From the NCBI GenBank assembly GCA_027483535.1, contig JAIXUN010000002.1, positions 2,046,001 through 2,110,000 on the forward strand: a stretch of DNA of 64,000 nucleotides, given 5' to 3'. This DNA comes from a bacterium (lineage in GTDB: Bacteria > Armatimonadota > Fimbriimonadia > Fimbriimonadales > Fimbriimonadaceae). Position numbers and translations under genes: made by a program. Below the pieces are notes generated by a model. That model saw only the letters and a program-made list of their open reading frames with translations. It searched no databases and was not told the origin of the DNA. Positions 4,439-34,982 of the stretch are shown here, one piece after another. How positions within the stretch are numbered: position 1 is the first letter of the stretch; the number at the start of each line of letters is the position of its first letter.

Positions 4439-5929
4439 ATGCCAAAATCTCTTATGGCTTTTCGAGAGGCACTTAGCTTCGATGATGTCCTCCTGGTGCC
4501 CCAGCACACCGAAGTTCTGCCCAGCGAAACCGACCTGTCTACCGAGTTCCTTCCCGGAATTCGCCTACGAGTCCCGATCGTGTCTGCCCCAATGGACACG
4601 GTCACCGATGCCCGTCTTGCAATCGCCATTGCCCGTGAAGGCGGCGTGGGCGTTCTTCACCGAACGATGTCGATTGAGGCTCAGGCCAATGCGGTCGACC
4701 GAGTGAAACGATCCGAATCGGGCGTTATCACGAAGCCGTTTAAACTTGGTCCGGAAGAAACGATTCAAGACGCCGTGAACCTCATGGAGCGCTATCACAT
4801 TAGCGGCGTTCCCATCGTTGATGTTGAGGGTCGATTAGTCGGAATTCTCACCAACCGCGACATTCGCTTCGAGTCTGATTACTCGCAGAAGATTTCCACC
4901 CGGATGACCAACAAAGACCTGGTCACCGCCAAGCCCGGCACCACCCTTGAAGAGGCTCAAATGATGCTCGCCGAGCATCGGATCGAGAAGCTCCCGATCG
5001 TGGATTCTGATGGTCACCTCACGGGCCTCATCACCATTAAAGACATCCTCAAGATTCAGCGACACCCGCTTTCCACAAAGGACTCGAAAGGACGGCTCGT
5101 GATCGGAGCGGCCATTGGCGCGCTCCGCGAGCCGTACGAGCGGGCAAAAGCATTGCACGACGCAGGAGTGGACTTCATCGTGATCGACGCCGCCCACGGG
5201 CATTCCAAGGGCGTGATGAACTGCTTGAAGATGCTCAAAGAGCGACTTCCTGATCTGAAAGTCATCGCCGGAAACGTCGCCACGCGAGCCGGAGTTCGAG
5301 CCCTGCACGAGCTAGGGGCCGACGGACTTCGAATCGGAATCGGTGCGGGATCGATCTGCACAACACGTGTCGTGGCAGGCGTCGGTGTTCCGCAATTCAC
5401 TGCCGTGTACGACTGTGCGCAGGAAGCAGGTGAACTTGGCATTCCGACCATTGCCGATGGTGGCATTCGCTCATCCGGCGACGTCGTCAAGTGTCTTGCG
5501 GCGGGGGCCAATAGCGTCATGATGGGCAACATGTTCGCGGGATGCGAAGAGAGCCCCGGTGAGGTGGAAATCTTCCGAAACCGAGCCTACAAGGTGTATC
5601 GAGGCATGGGCAGCATCGGCGCGATGAAGTCTGGATCCAGCGATCGCTATATGCAGGTGAAAGAAGCGGGAGCGGTCATCGTTCCGGAAGGTGTTGAGGG
5701 TCGAGTTCCGTACAAGGGCACCCTCAAAGACACGATGGACCAACTGGTGGGGGGACTACGATCGGGCATGGGCTACGTCGGCGCCTCCAACCTCTTGGAG
5801 CTTCGAGAAAACGCGGAGTTTGTAAAGATCACCAACGCGGGCCTTCGAGAATCTCACCCCCACGACGTTCAGATCACCAAGGAACCACCGAACTACTCTT
5901 CGCCCTACGCAGGCTCTGAGAGCGACTAA
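4439..5929 (+). CDS. guaB: Inosine-5'-monophosphate dehydrogenase
   Basis: 496 residues, normal for bacterial IMPDH. It oxidises IMP to XMP with NAD+, the first committed step of GTP synthesis. The N-terminal barrel segment contains SFDDVLLVP and PMDTVTD. A pair of CBS domains follows (about residues 95-210), then the barrel resumes with the catalytic-loop motif GSICTTRV, in which C307 is the nucleophile. The C-terminal flap carries YRGMGSIGAM. The usual GIGPGS is GIGAGS here. An AAGGTGG lies upstream of the ATG. The gene has its own terminator at 5938-5990 and no purine genes around it. Confidence 0.97.
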   Translation: MPKSLMAFREALSFDDVLLVPQHTEVLPSETDLSTEFLPGIRLRVPIVSAPMDTVTDARLAIAIAREGGVGVLHRTMSIEAQANAVDRVKRSESGVITKPFKLGPEETIQDAVNLMERYHISGVPIVDVEGRLVGILTNRDIRFESDYSQKISTRMTNKDLVTAKPGTTLEEAQMMLAEHRIEKLPIVDSDGHLTGLITIKDILKIQRHPLSTKDSKGRLVIGAAIGALREPYERAKALHDAGVDFIVIDAAHGHSKGVMNCLKMLKERLPDLKVIAGNVATRAGVRALHELGADGLRIGIGAGSICTTRVVAGVGVPQFTAVYDCAQEAGELGIPTIADGGIRSSGDVVKCLAAGANSVMMGNMFAGCEESPGEVEIFRNRAYKVYRGMGSIGAMKSGSSDRYMQVKEAGAVIVPEGVEGRVPYKGTLKDTMDQLVGGLRSGMGYVGASNLLELRENAEFVKITNAGLRESHPHDVQITKEPPNYSSPYAGSESD

Positions 5930-5937
5930 CTCTAACG

Positions 5938-5990
5938 AAGCCCATCGCAGGTCACCCTTTGAACCGCGATGGGCTTCATAATCTTTTTGC
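5938..5990 (+). terminator. Intrinsic terminator of guaB
   Basis: An 11-bp perfect stem, AAGCCCATCGC/GCGATGGGCTT (5938-5948 with 5966-5976), followed by CATAATCTTTTT. It begins eight bases after the guaB stop and argues against the TTG at 5959 as the start of the next gene. Confidence 0.85.
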
Positions 5991-28783: not shown

Positions 28784-28974
28784 GATCTAAGCGTAGCAGA
28801 TTCAACTTACGTTACGGGGACCCACAAAAGTGTCTCACGGAACATACCCCCCAGGGGATAAACATCGATCCGATAAAGAACCTAGTCCTCAAGACCAGAT
28901 CGTCAAAAGTTGGCGACCTCAACAAAGTCGATCCCATACCTTGCCGGAAAACGGGGGCCGTGTTGGAGAGCGAG
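28784..28974. other. Intergenic stretch upstream of the zinc-ribbon gene
   Basis: About 190 bases between the small Cys-rich reading frame and the zinc-ribbon gene start, both minus strand. It probably holds the promoter and leader of the zinc-ribbon operon. I see no clear consensus hexamers and no strong hairpin. Confidence 0.4.
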
Positions 28975-29181
28975 CTACGAGGAAAGCTTGCCGGAGGGCC
29001 CTTGCCGATCCATCAACCGAGTCGCGACAATACGTTCGCGGTACTCATTGAACACACAAATCGAGCGAAGACCAATCGTTTGGGCGGTCGTAAACGTCGA
29101 TTCAAAAGAGTGTGGATTCACTTTGCCGTCTTTGCAACGCGCGTTTAATTCGTCGAATCTTGCACAATCCCTACAGTCCAC
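28975..29181 (-). CDS. Candidate small Cys-rich protein
   Basis: 68 residues from a GTG at 29181 with GAGG six bases upstream; the longer frame to 29226 would overlap the divergent gene. The sequence reads like a real small domain: DCRDCARFDELNARCKDGKVNP has a CxxC pair and another Cys, then GLRSICVFNEYRERIV adds a fourth Cys. This spacing suits a zinc site. The start is 16 bases from the divergent 29198 gene. The next gene on this strand is the zinc-ribbon gene. I do not know a family name for it. Confidence 0.5.
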   Translation of the reverse strand: MDCRDCARFDELNARCKDGKVNPHSFESTFTTAQTIGLRSICVFNEYRERIVATRLMDRQGPSGKLSS

Positions 29182-29197
29182 TGGAGGCCTCGTAAAA

Positions 29198-30181
29198 ATG
29201 ATAGCCGTTTGTCTACTCGTTTCCAATATGATTCCTCAAGAGACCTCGATCAGTTTCGACAAAAAAGCTCGGTCGTTTGTGGTGAAGGTTGGCAAAGAGA
29301 CCCGCGTCGCCAAGGTGCAACCCGCCCCGCCGGAACCCATCCCCGCGCTCGTTTTTCGTAAAGACGATCGGTGGGTGGTCTGGGATGATCGCGGCCTTGT
29401 GATTCGGGTCGGCGACAAAGTCACCACCACCAAGCTCGACCCGGTGGTCGACGATGCCACTCTTTTCACCGCGAAGCAAAAGGCTGAGAACGGAAAGCTG
29501 ATCAAAGAGGGGAAAAGGAAGAAGCAAGCCGCCGCCTTGAGCGGAGCGGTGAGAATTGGTTCGACAGTCTTTCTCCTTCCGCGTTGGGTGGACAACACCG
29601 GACAAACCTGGCTGGAAGCCATGGTCAAAGTCGATTTCTCCGACCCCGAACCGCGCCCCAAGGTCCTCGGAAAGTTTAACGGCAACACTCGGGCGACCAA
29701 AAACATCGACAACGAAGTTTTCGTGGTGGACGATCGCCCCGCCGCCATCGTGACTCAGGGAGATACCTGGGGGGTTTCTAGCCTAGACCCGAAATCGGGG
29801 GACATCGTTTATTCCGTTTTTGGGAGCAACTTAGTGGAGTACCGGTCGTCTGGCCTGTTCCTAGAAAAGACTTCGTACAAAACCACTCTCTTTGGGGAGG
29901 TGGATCCAAAAACGGGTCGAAGAAGGATTCTCTACGAAACGAAGTCGACGAATTTTGAGCTCACCCCGACACTCCCCGTGTTGGCGAGATTTGACTCAAA
30001 GGCAACCGTTTTTCATCATCTGGAAACCGGAGCCGAAGTATCGCTGCCCGGCAAGCAAGGATTTCGCGAAGCGGGAGACTGGCTGGTTGCCTGGAAAACA
30101 GACAATGGTCGAACCCGGGTGAACGTTTACAAGGCCGAGACCTGGGCGCTTCTTGCCAGCGCAAACATCTCCCTAAAATAA
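29198..30181 (+). CDS. Hypothetical protein with beta-propeller-like repeats
   Basis: 327 residues from the ATG at 29198, which has GGAGG eight bases upstream; earlier in-frame starts from 28910 lack one. A short hydrophobic N-terminus (MIAVCLLVSNMI) is too short to be a sure signal peptide. The rest is beta-rich with recurring motifs such as DDRWVVWDDRGLVIRVGD, FVVDDRPAAIVTQGDTWGVSSLDPKSGD and LVAWKTDNGRTRVNVYK. This is the sort of four-strand pattern seen in propellers. No catalytic motif is seen. It ends at a bidirectional terminator shared with the sigma gene. Confidence 0.65.
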   Translation: MIAVCLLVSNMIPQETSISFDKKARSFVVKVGKETRVAKVQPAPPEPIPALVFRKDDRWVVWDDRGLVIRVGDKVTTTKLDPVVDDATLFTAKQKAENGKLIKEGKRKKQAAALSGAVRIGSTVFLLPRWVDNTGQTWLEAMVKVDFSDPEPRPKVLGKFNGNTRATKNIDNEVFVVDDRPAAIVTQGDTWGVSSLDPKSGDIVYSVFGSNLVEYRSSGLFLEKTSYKTTLFGEVDPKTGRRRILYETKSTNFELTPTLPVLARFDSKATVFHHLETGAEVSLPGKQGFREAGDWLVAWKTDNGRTRVNVYKAETWALLASANISLK

Positions 30182-30237: not shown

Positions 30238-31512
30238 TTAGGCGGCGCGTTGATCGCCCGTTTCGGCAAGTGTCGCTTCGATCTTGGCGATCAAGTCTCG
30301 ACCCGTCTTGCCGTCTTTCGGAGCAAGAGCCTCGGCGACGTACGCCTTGACAGCGCCCGTGTTTCCGTATCGACCGCTTACCCACAGGTTCAATCGAGAG
30401 AGCAAACGTCCTCGAACGAGGTCCAAGTTTTTGCCACCCGAAGGAAGAATGATTGCAAATCCGGTTTGACCGTATCGTGCTACCAAGTCTAGGCGACGAA
30501 CGTTGTCTCGGAAGAAGTCGGCGGCATCGTAAAGGAATCCTTGAACGCTTTCCTCACCATAGAACCGTCGCATACCCTCCAGACCCGTGAACTTCACCAC
30601 GATGAGACCCACCTCGGTGTTCTCATAGCTGGCTCGGTGAAGCTCCTCATCGATTCGTGCCCGGAAGTATGCCTCCGTGTACGCATCGGTGATCGGATCG
30701 ACGATCTCATTTTCGGAGACGTCGGACGACTTTCGCAGCACGCGATCCTTCGCCTCTTCCGAGGTGAGAATCTTGCGCAGCTTCGCCAGCGATTGTCGGA
30801 GAATGTGCGACACATAGTTGCACGAGATTCCGAGTTTGCTTGCGATTTCTGTTTGGTTCAGAGCCTCGAAGTGGAAGAGGGTCAAAACCTCTCGTTCCAA
30901 ATCTCGAAGCTGTTGCATGGCGTGTTCAAGTACCACTCGATCTTCCACCGACAGTTGCTCTGGGGTGTAGTTGGCCGCGTCGATCTTATCGACTTCGGAT
31001 TCCACATCATCCTCAGAATTGGTCGGCAGAGCATCCAGTGAACCGACGCGCAACAGGTCCGCGGTGATAAGAACTTCTTTCACCGACGACTCGCTAACAC
31101 CGATGGTGTCGGCGATTTCCCGCTCGGTAGGAACTCGTCCAAGCGTTGCCTGCAGCGACGACGCGGCTCGATTCACCTTGTGACGCAGCTCTTGAAGCCA
31201 CGCCGGTTGGCGAATCGTCTGCGACTTATCGCGCAGGTAGTGCTTGATTTCACCCGCCACCAAGTAGGTGGCGTAGGTGTTGAATCGAACTCCTGCCGAC
31301 GGATCGAACTTATTGAGCGCGTTCAGCAGACCGATAAAGCCCACTTGAACTAGGTCTTCGTACGCTTCGATACCGGCGAACTTTCGTGCGGTTCGCTCCA
31401 CGAGACTTGCATAGTTCACCATGATCAAGTCTCGAAGATCCGCACGCGGATTCTCCAGATACCGAAGGACTAAACCCTCCGAATCGTGCCCCAGTTGAGA
31501 CGTTTGCGACAT
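30238..31512 (-). CDS. Sigma-70 family factor fused to a degenerate GGDEF domain
   Basis: 424 residues. Region 2 (about 28-110) has LVQVGFIGLLNALNKFD and FNTYATYLVAGEIKHYLRD, region 3 (about 118-160) GRVPTEREIADTIGVSESSV, region 4 (about 195-250) LRDLEREVLTLFHFEALNQTEIASKLGIS. That is a FliA/SigF-like group 3 sigma without region 1. From about 270 to 420 comes a second domain that follows the diguanylate cyclase pattern: DPITDAYTEAYF, LIVVKFTGL (the metal Asp replaced), then RRLDLVARYGQTGFAIILPS. The GGDEF signature is GQTGF, so synthesis is unlikely, but RxxD (R339, D342) is at the exact inhibitory-site spacing. GGAGTG precedes the ATG by five bases. The upstream same-strand gene is pilC. 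No anti-sigma is adjacent. Confidence 0.9.
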   Translation of the reverse strand: MSQTSQLGHDSEGLVLRYLENPRADLRDLIMVNYASLVERTARKFAGIEAYEDLVQVGFIGLLNALNKFDPSAGVRFNTYATYLVAGEIKHYLRDKSQTIRQPAWLQELRHKVNRAASSLQATLGRVPTEREIADTIGVSESSVKEVLITADLLRVGSLDALPTNSEDDVESEVDKIDAANYTPEQLSVEDRVVLEHAMQQLRDLEREVLTLFHFEALNQTEIASKLGISCNYVSHILRQSLAKLRKILTSEEAKDRVLRKSSDVSENEIVDPITDAYTEAYFRARIDEELHRASYENTEVGLIVVKFTGLEGMRRFYGEESVQGFLYDAADFFRDNVRRLDLVARYGQTGFAIILPSGGKNLDLVRGRLLSRLNLWVSGRYGNTGAVKAYVAEALAPKDGKTGRDLIAKIEATLAETGDQRAA

Positions 31513-31536
31513 ATTTCACTCCGTTGATTGCTGTTT

Positions 31537-31602
31537 CCGAGCACATCCTGTGCTCGGGGTTGATGATTGCTTTTGCCCGTGGTGGATCCTTCCGCCACGG
31601 GC
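31537..31602 (-). other. Tandem hairpins upstream of the sigma-GGDEF gene
   Basis: Two stems lie in the 97 bases between pilC and the sigma gene: CCGAGCACA/TGTGCTCGG (31537-31545 with 31549-31557, 3-nt loop) and a 12-bp stem with one G-U (31575-31586 with 31591-31602). Neither is followed by a T-tract on the minus strand, so they are more likely mRNA structures, processing or pausing sites than standard terminators. Confidence 0.55.
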
Positions 31603-31609
31603 GAAATCG

Positions 31610-32818
31610 TTATTGAACGCTGTTGACGAGTTTGAAGATCGGAACCATGATCGAGATGGCGATAAAGCCGACCACGACACCGAGGAAGATGATGAGTAAG
31701 GGCTCGATCATCGAAGTAAGCCCCTTCACCGCCGCCTCGACCTCTTGGTCGTAGAATTCGCCGACCTTGACCAGCATCTCTGGGAGTCGTCCTGACTCCT
31801 CACCGATGTCGATCATGGTGGTGACCATGGTTGGGAACAAGCCCGAAGCCGCGAGCGGAGTCGACAGCTTCGTTCCTTCCCGCAGGCTGGCTCGAGTGTT
31901 ATCGATCGCCTGGTTCAGAACTTCGTTGCTCAAGGTTTCACCCACAATTTCAAGGCTGCGCATCATCGGCACACCCGAGTTGATGAGGGTTCCAAAGGTT
32001 CGAGAGAAGCGAGCGACGCTCATTTTCATGGACAGATCGCCCATGATCGGCACTCGCAGCTTCAGAAAGTCGAGCTGATACTTCCCTTTCGGAGTCTTCG
32101 CGTACTGCTTCAGACCAATAAATACGGCTCCGATGAAGAGGAGAATCACCCACCAGTAGGCCTGCATGAAGTCGCCAATTCCGAAGAGGAACTTCGTGAC
32201 AGGCGGCATCTCTACGTTCATGCCCGTGAAGATCTCTTTGAACTTCGGCAAAACGAAGGTGAAGAGAGCGAAGAGCATGATCTGAGAGAAGGCAAGGACG
32301 AGGACCGGGTAGGTCATCGCCGATTTGATCTTGCCCTTGATCTCGGCTTCGTACTCCAAGAATCCGCTGAGACGGTCGAGAATCTGGTCGAGGATGCCTC
32401 CCAGTTCTGCCGCACGAATCATGTTCACGTAAAGTTTCGAGAACACGTTTGGGTGCTTGGCCATCGCCTCGTTCAGGGTCATACCGCCCTTAACGTCAAT
32501 GGTGATGGTCTCTAGCGCCTCAGTGAGTCCAGGATCTTTACTTTGACCGTGGAGAATGTCCAGACACCGGAGAATGGGGATACCGGCGTCGATCATGGTC
32601 GCGAACTGCCTTGAGAAGACGACAAGCGATTTCAGCTTGACCTTCTTCGGCTTCTTTGACCCAATCGGCGCAGCCGCTTTGGCCTGTTTGATTTCGGCGA
32701 CATGAAGCGATTGCTCCCGCAGTTTTGCGGCGAGCGCTGCTTCAGACTCTGCTTCTTGGGTGGATGAAATCATCTTCCCCGAAGCAGGATCTACCGCTTT
32801 AAAGGCGTACATCGGCAT
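31610..32818 (-). CDS. pilC: Type IV pilus / type II secretion inner-membrane protein (PilC/GspF)
   Basis: 402 residues from the ATG at 32818, with AGGAG upstream; the longer frame to 32983 is read-through. The family start MPMYAFKAVDPASGKMI is typical. Two T2SF cytoplasmic domains are present: VFSRQFATMIDAGIPILRCLDIL in the first repeat and RFSRTFGTLINSGVPMMRSLEIV in the second. Membrane helices lie after each repeat and at the C-terminus, which ends VGFIAISIMVPIFKLVNSV. PilC is the platform that couples the assembly ATPase to pilin polymerisation in the inner membrane. It likely serves the pseudopilins in this window and precedes the sigma-GGDEF gene. Confidence 0.95.
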   Translation of the reverse strand: MPMYAFKAVDPASGKMISSTQEAESEAALAAKLREQSLHVAEIKQAKAAAPIGSKKPKKVKLKSLVVFSRQFATMIDAGIPILRCLDILHGQSKDPGLTEALETITIDVKGGMTLNEAMAKHPNVFSKLYVNMIRAAELGGILDQILDRLSGFLEYEAEIKGKIKSAMTYPVLVLAFSQIMLFALFTFVLPKFKEIFTGMNVEMPPVTKFLFGIGDFMQAYWWVILLFIGAVFIGLKQYAKTPKGKYQLDFLKLRVPIMGDLSMKMSVARFSRTFGTLINSGVPMMRSLEIVGETLSNEVLNQAIDNTRASLREGTKLSTPLAASGLFPTMVTTMIDIGEESGRLPEMLVKVGEFYDQEVEAAVKGLTSMIEPLLIIFLGVVVGFIAISIMVPIFKLVNSVQ

Positions 32819-33057
32819 TTTCGTTCTCTCTCCTAATGTGCGGGGGAATTCGGACGACCGAATCCAGCAACAAGCGCCCCAACCCAATCCCCTTGGATTT
32901 TCGTTCACTTGTTTTTGCTGAACCGGCATCTCTACCAAGTTCCCTTCGACACGATTAATAGTCGGGAAACGGAGTGCGGACACCCCACGTATAAATGCGA
33001 GAATCGCCTAACAATCAACTTTAGGTTTTTCCATGAGCCGACAAAGACTTGAGGCGA

Positions 33058-33107: not shown

Positions 33108-33518
33108 TTACCGCGTGGATCGTGCGGCTCGGATGCGTGCCGTGGCTCGTTCGATCTCGGTGATCGCGTCTTCTTGCGCGACGGTGGAATCCTCTCCGCG
33201 AAGAGCCTTACGGGCCTCTTCGAGAGCCTTTTCCGCCTCTGCAAGCTGAACCTCGTCGGCAAGACGAGCTTCATCGGCAAGAACTGTTACCTTGCCCTTT
33301 GCGACTTCCACAAAGCCACCGCCAACATAAACATATTGGCGATTACTCTTATCGTCGATGTACTCCAACAAACCAGGTCTCAAGGCCGAAACCAACGCTA
33401 CGTGACCGGCTTGCACACCGAAGTAACCATCGATGCCGGGCGCCACGAGCGAGATAGCCGTGGTTTCGACAACCGATCGATCCGGTGCCACAACGGAGAG
33501 CGAGAAGGTTCCTGCCAT
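33108..33518 (-). CDS. atpC: F1-ATPase epsilon subunit
   Basis: 136 residues. The N-terminal beta barrel shows FSLSVVAPDRSVVE, GYFGVQAGHVALVSALRPG and YVGGGFVEVAKGKVTVLAD; the C-terminal two-helix hairpin is about residues 88-136. The epsilon subunit sits on the gamma stalk and regulates ATP hydrolysis. The ATG lies three bases after the atpD stop, and the transcript ends at a strong terminator. Only beta and epsilon are encoded here; the other subunits are not in the window. Confidence 0.95.
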   Translation of the reverse strand: MAGTFSLSVVAPDRSVVETTAISLVAPGIDGYFGVQAGHVALVSALRPGLLEYIDDKSNRQYVYVGGGFVEVAKGKVTVLADEARLADEVQLAEAEKALEEARKALRGEDSTVAQEDAITEIERATARIRAARSTR

Positions 33519-33521
33519 AGA

Positions 33522-34982
<1,461 letters not shown>

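Follow-up and report, generated by a model that had tools for sequence, protein, structure and literature searches.

Alternative sigma factors are usually governed by separate anti-sigma factors or by regulated synthesis. Direct action of c-di-GMP on an alternative sigma factor is known from the RsiG-(c-di-GMP)2-WhiG complex of Streptomyces and Rubrobacter, and in Rubrobacter the c-di-GMP-gated WhiG has promoters in a type IV pilus cluster (PMC8325347). Cyanobacterial SigF, a group-3 sigma factor with region 3, governs the genes for type IV pilins as well as motility, and in Synechocystis it directly drives transcription of pilA1 (PMC2758279). GGDEF-type or diguanylate cyclase-like domains can also serve as c-di-GMP receptors and not as cyclases, as in PopA and PelD, whose reported outputs are the cell cycle and exopolysaccharide (PMC10519070).

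The gene analysed here lies in a 64,000-nucleotide stretch of a Fimbriimonadaceae genome (the whole stretch is referred to as the window) and encodes a SigB/SigF-type (group-3) sigma-70 factor continued by a GGDEF-fold domain. As we predict it to work, it would share with RsiG-WhiG the direct action of c-di-GMP on an alternative sigma factor and the link to pili. RsiG, however, is a separate coiled-coil anti-sigma factor with E(X)3S(X)2R(X)3Q(X)3D motifs, whereas here a GGDEF domain with an inhibitory site (I-site) is covalently part of the sigma factor, and the two systems belong to different phyla and different sigma subgroups (PMC8325347). The predicted use of the domain as a receptor resembles PopA and PelD, but here the domain has a sigma factor of RNA polymerase as its output. 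SigF comes from the same broad NCBIfam neighbourhood, but no fused GGDEF domain has been described for it, and neither its pilA1-type promoter consensus nor the SigB-type consensus was found in the window. The product-inhibited diguanylate cyclases PleD and tDGC have the same fold and identical RxxD spacing; unlike them, the fusion is joined to a sigma factor and has lost the catalytic signature in every homologue.

Architecture of the fusion protein

The fusion gene occupies positions 30238-31512 of the minus strand (the plus strand, which bare coordinates might suggest, is wrong) as a single uninterrupted open reading frame of 424 codons plus stop, with an ATG at 31512 and a Shine-Dalgarno-like GGAG a few bases before it (31522-31519). 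Four Pfam domains, all above cut-off, follow one another on this strand: sigma-70 region 2 (residues 34-97, 31222-31413; PF04542, 3e-14), region 3 (residues 108-152, 31057-31191; PF04539, 6.6e-9), region 4 (residues 198-247, 30772-30921; PF04545, 7.3e-12) and a degenerate GGDEF domain (residues 271-418, 30259-30702; PF00990, 1.4e-13, 51.4 bits against a cut-off of 23.8). The one-frame fusion read by the first-pass annotation is thus borne out, with no internal stop. The sigma half is nearest to the SigB/SigF/SigG and cyanobacterial SigF models of NCBIfam; since its scores fall below the curated cut-offs (TIGR02980, 183.8 bits versus 234.35; PRK07408, 176 versus 261), SigB/SigF/SigG is its nearest group and not a formal family assignment.

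In the predicted structure the GGDEF fold is well formed (Z 19.8 and rmsd 2.1 over 150 residues to 4urs), and the fold matches of the C-terminal domain include PleD-c-di-GMP complexes (Z about 19). The sigma half matches SigB and other sigma factors in polymerase complexes, and region 4 ends in a long helix (residues 231-263) that continues directly into the linker. The AlphaFold model leaves the position of the two halves relative to each other undefined (pTM 0.40), and its domain packing is unusable.

The possibility that two separate genes had been joined by a frameshift or an assembly error, raised when the fusion was first noticed, is excluded, because well over 100 distinct homologues, from more than 100 genomes and down to about 35-45% identity, have the same fused frame. 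The named relatives that carry it are Fimbriimonas, Fimbriimonadaceae, Chthonomonas and other Armatimonadetes metagenome-assembled genomes, and on that ground we assign the phylum as Armatimonadota. The literature searched, which omitted most subscription papers, held no description of a sigma-GGDEF chain; because that literature is limited and domain databases may already display the architecture, we claim no more than the absence of a functional description from the literature searched.

Loss of catalytic residues and retention of the inhibitory site

The signature motif reads GQTGF (G348 to F352, 30457-30471, minus strand) and the first metal-Asp position is K307 (30592-30594, minus). We followed both in an alignment of 145 sequences, made up of an earlier homologue set and the deepest branches: not one has an intact GG[DE]EF, Asp stands at the first metal position in only 16, and acids stand at both metal positions in a single homologue. 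The degeneracy noticed in one protein therefore extends to the family, and, judged by the signature and metal residues of active diguanylate cyclases, the C-terminal domain is predicted no longer to make c-di-GMP. In two deep-branch members (L137 and L139) the signature reads GGGTF and the first metal position is an Asp; they appear closer to an ancestral active cyclase.

The I-site, R339-R-L-D342 (30487-30498, minus), precedes the signature by five residues, as in degenerate-GGDEF receptors. R339 and D342 align exactly with R158 and D161 of Thermotoga tDGC, both in sequence and by the model-to-chain offset of 181, and in tDGC the R158A substitution abolishes c-di-GMP binding (PMC4215984). Both residues are kept in 142 of the 145 homologues, the exceptions being L184 (Gln), L239 (Asn) and L244 (His), so that a fusion retained with its RxxD lost, which had been named in advance as an argument against sensing, is rare. 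One genome (G188) has two copies of the fusion, L230 and L244, the latter being the one with His in place of the I-site Arg.

The first-pass annotation was right about the presence and the spacing of the motif, but by itself the motif is unremarkable: of 44 GGDEF domains of active type that we sampled from the same phylum as a control, 37 carry RxxD, and so do 57% of diguanylate cyclases (PMC4215984). Because it is so frequent, RxxD in one sequence means little, and we dismissed it as evidence on its own; for the same reason, part of its retention in the fusion family could be structural. What is informative is its family-wide survival after catalytic decay, which, as a pattern of sequence conservation, argues for a binding role. 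In a set of 114 homologues, which form 86 clusters at under 70% identity, no column of the C-terminal domain is strictly invariant except R339 and D342, although the domain varies much more than the sigma half (mean column entropy 2.43 versus 1.43 bits).

Conservation of this kind might instead mark a protein-protein or dimerisation module, holding for example an anti-sigma factor or a pilus protein, with RxxD kept for the fold or for surface contacts. R286, E289, E290 and R293 are conserved almost as well although none is a known I-site residue, and protein-interaction roles of degenerate GGDEF domains are described (PMC5635695). R339 and D342, however, outrank every other column and coincide with the I-site position for position. 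In Campylobacter that have lost their active cyclases, moreover, the degenerate GGDEF domains left behind have decayed I-sites too (PMC9239204), so the fold can do without this site. We regard a purely protein-binding role as unlikely.

Nor do we expect the domain to sense GTP or (p)ppGpp with what is left of its active site, a reading that we rate as very improbable. A remnant A-site cleft may persist, and structures of PleD with ppGpp or pppGpp are among the fold matches (9g85, 9g86), but the signature and the residues at the metal positions are disrupted and differ from homologue to homologue, and the conservation sits at the I-site and not at the A-site.

Apart from R339 and D342, two arginines could take part in holding the ligand. 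R293 (30634-30636, minus; Arg in 144 of 145) sits one turn of the helix ahead of the secondary I-site position, whose canonical residue, R115 in tDGC, corresponds to Tyr296 here and is Arg in 75 of the 145 homologues. R369 (30406-30408, minus) is Arg in 139 of 145, and we take it to be a candidate equivalent of the secondary I-site Arg of PleD.

Distribution in Armatimonadota and co-occurrence with cyclases

The first-pass annotation had proposed searching for sigma-70 regions and GGDEF in one chain. Searching the phylum with the fusion protein and then with a 43-row profile, and counting by hand from the search tables, we found such chains in about 140 of 194 good-quality genomes (completeness of 90% or more, contamination of 5% or less), leaving 54 without; most lineages of Armatimonadota carry the fusion. 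Full-length fusions match at 1e-87 or better and are well separated from sigma-only paralogues. A single-query scan across some 85,000 species genomes, which reaches close relatives only, returned nothing but Armatimonadota-type fusions and one partial sigma match; there was no fusion at 1e-60 in 148 genomes around a Syntrophorhabdaceae genome (a thin sample of a second phylum), and no plasmid record covered 80% of the query. In one single-contig genome (G150; L148, positions 4971-5966) the fusion frame stops inside the GGDEF domain before the I-site, at a TGA after about 332 residues, which is a truncation, a pseudogene or a sequencing error.

In a tree of the sigma domains every fused sigma factor falls in one clade (support 0.91). 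Three unfused sigma factors of one family (f17; L185, L186 and L188) nest inside that clade beside a fused sister (support 0.96), and this nesting suggests one fusion event followed by one secondary loss of the C-terminal domain in f17. The three proteins end in basic tails.

A strong cyclase (a cyclase-type GGDEF match with E below 1e-20) is missing from none of the 140 fusion-bearing good genomes and from 14 of the 54 fusion-less ones. Fisher's test gives p about 4e-9 with phylogeny ignored, a value that overstates independence, because the cyclase-less genomes amount to roughly eight lineages. That all good genomes without a strong cyclase also lack the fusion speaks against a domain that merely contacts proteins. 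Two 1.5-Mb genomes (G132 and G133) keep the fusion with just two GGDEF matches in all, and some c-di-GMP-competent relatives are without the fusion, such as G080 (11 GGDEF matches) and G186 (9). Four close relatives in one genus (G081, G082, G088 and G098) have no GGDEF domain match at all and no fusion, an apparent whole-system loss of c-di-GMP synthesis. We also considered that cyclase-less genomes might keep the sigma factor minus its GGDEF domain; this was unsupported, the sigma-only matches in G015, G221 and G215 being a separate paralogue in the tree.

Linkage to pilC and a proposed mode of action

Directly upstream of the fusion gene, on the same minus strand, lies pilC (T2SSF family; 31610-32821 from a likely start MPMYAFK, in a frame reaching to 32983; PF00482, 1.2e-61). 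The pilus link was at first drawn from this one neighbour; it now extends across the phylum: of about 110 loci that could be scored, 78 have pilC as the immediate upstream neighbour in the same orientation (median gap 110 bp), and in many pilB is found two or three genes ahead of the fusion gene. In the present genome neither pilB nor pilT adjoins pilC, which follows ATP synthase genes (33108-33518 and 33522-34958, read as atpC and atpD). On the other side of the fusion gene is a convergent plus-strand gene of unknown function (28910-30181) with a weak beta-propeller match, which adjoins the sigma gene in 14 loci. Presence and absence are uninformative on dependence of pili on the fusion, since type IV pilus genes are near-universal (PilT in 290 of 291 genomes); because they also occur in essentially all fusion-less genomes, the fusion is not required for pili.

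SigB/SigF-type sigma factors are normally controlled by RsbW-type anti-sigma factors. As these are the closest sigma families, a separate anti-sigma factor acting by partner switching might be the main control here too, with the GGDEF domain merely fine-tuning. We recognised no anti-sigma factor, however, among the recurrent genes of the fusion neighbourhoods (pilC, pilB and unrelated genes), and consider this arrangement quite improbable.

The minus-strand leader between pilC and the sigma gene (31513-31609) contains hairpins. One, CCGAGCAC-AGGAT-GTGCTCGG (31537-31557, minus), has a CsrA-type GGA loop and, as we read it, resembles the known CsrA site consensus; another, GCCCGTGG-CGGAAGGATCCAC-CACGGGC (31575-31602, minus), has GGA in its apical part. 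Across 74 pilC-sigma gaps we counted 66 GGA-loop hairpins, a strong enrichment over the 11.6 obtained on average, and the 22 at most, in 20 shuffles. A csrA gene was found in this genome, and hairpins occur in 38 of 63 pilC-linked loci with csrA versus 3 of 21 fusion loci from genomes in which csrA was not detected. Deep csrA-bearing lineages mostly lack them (hairpins in just 4 of 17), so they look like a feature of some lineages and not of the whole family. The hairpins suggest a second layer of control through putative CsrA-type sites; no Rfam family, the c-di-GMP riboswitch included, matched the leader.

The selective retention of R339 and D342, the co-distribution with cyclases, the linkage to pilC and the fold matches to PleD complexes lead us to favour a one-component receptor-sigma. 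We think it reasonably probable that the protein is a c-di-GMP-gated sigma factor, in which the dead GGDEF domain is kept as a receptor, its immobilisation alters access of the sigma regions, and pilus genes are likely targets. The group-3 half would bind core RNA polymerase and select promoters, while an intercalated c-di-GMP dimer would sit on R339 and D342, clamped by further arginines, such as R293 or R369, of a second GGDEF domain, should the protein dimerise, or of the sigma body. Immobilisation of the domain, as in PleD and tDGC, would then change the access of sigma regions 2-4 to polymerase or promoter DNA. Type IV pilus genes would be among the likely targets, a choice supported by the nearness of the sigma half to cyanobacterial SigF-type models and by the control of pilA1 by Synechocystis SigF. 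Points that weigh against the model are the frequency of RxxD among GGDEF domains at large, the Tyr at the canonical secondary I-site position, the c-di-GMP-competent relatives that do without the fusion, the occurrence of type IV pilus genes irrespective of it, and the lack of SigB- or SigF-type promoter consensuses in the window. We lean slightly, by analogy with RsiG-WhiG, towards repression at high c-di-GMP.

Thus c-di-GMP probably switches genes, likely those for surface pili, directly through the fusion protein. For the wider proposal we put the balance only just in favour: that a phylum-wide family of sigma factors in Armatimonadota is ligand-gated, c-di-GMP binding to the sigma chain itself via a fossil cyclase domain and so rewiring the choice of pilus and surface promoters without an anti-sigma factor. 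If true, a sigma factor that carries a c-di-GMP receptor of its own would connect the second messenger to promoter choice by the shortest route, and would be an independent solution, in another phylum, to that of Rubrobacter RsiG-WhiG, where c-di-GMP also acts through a sigma factor on type IV pili. It would offer an entry point to c-di-GMP signalling in Armatimonadota, and would mean that the product-inhibition site of a cyclase can outlast catalysis as a sensor.
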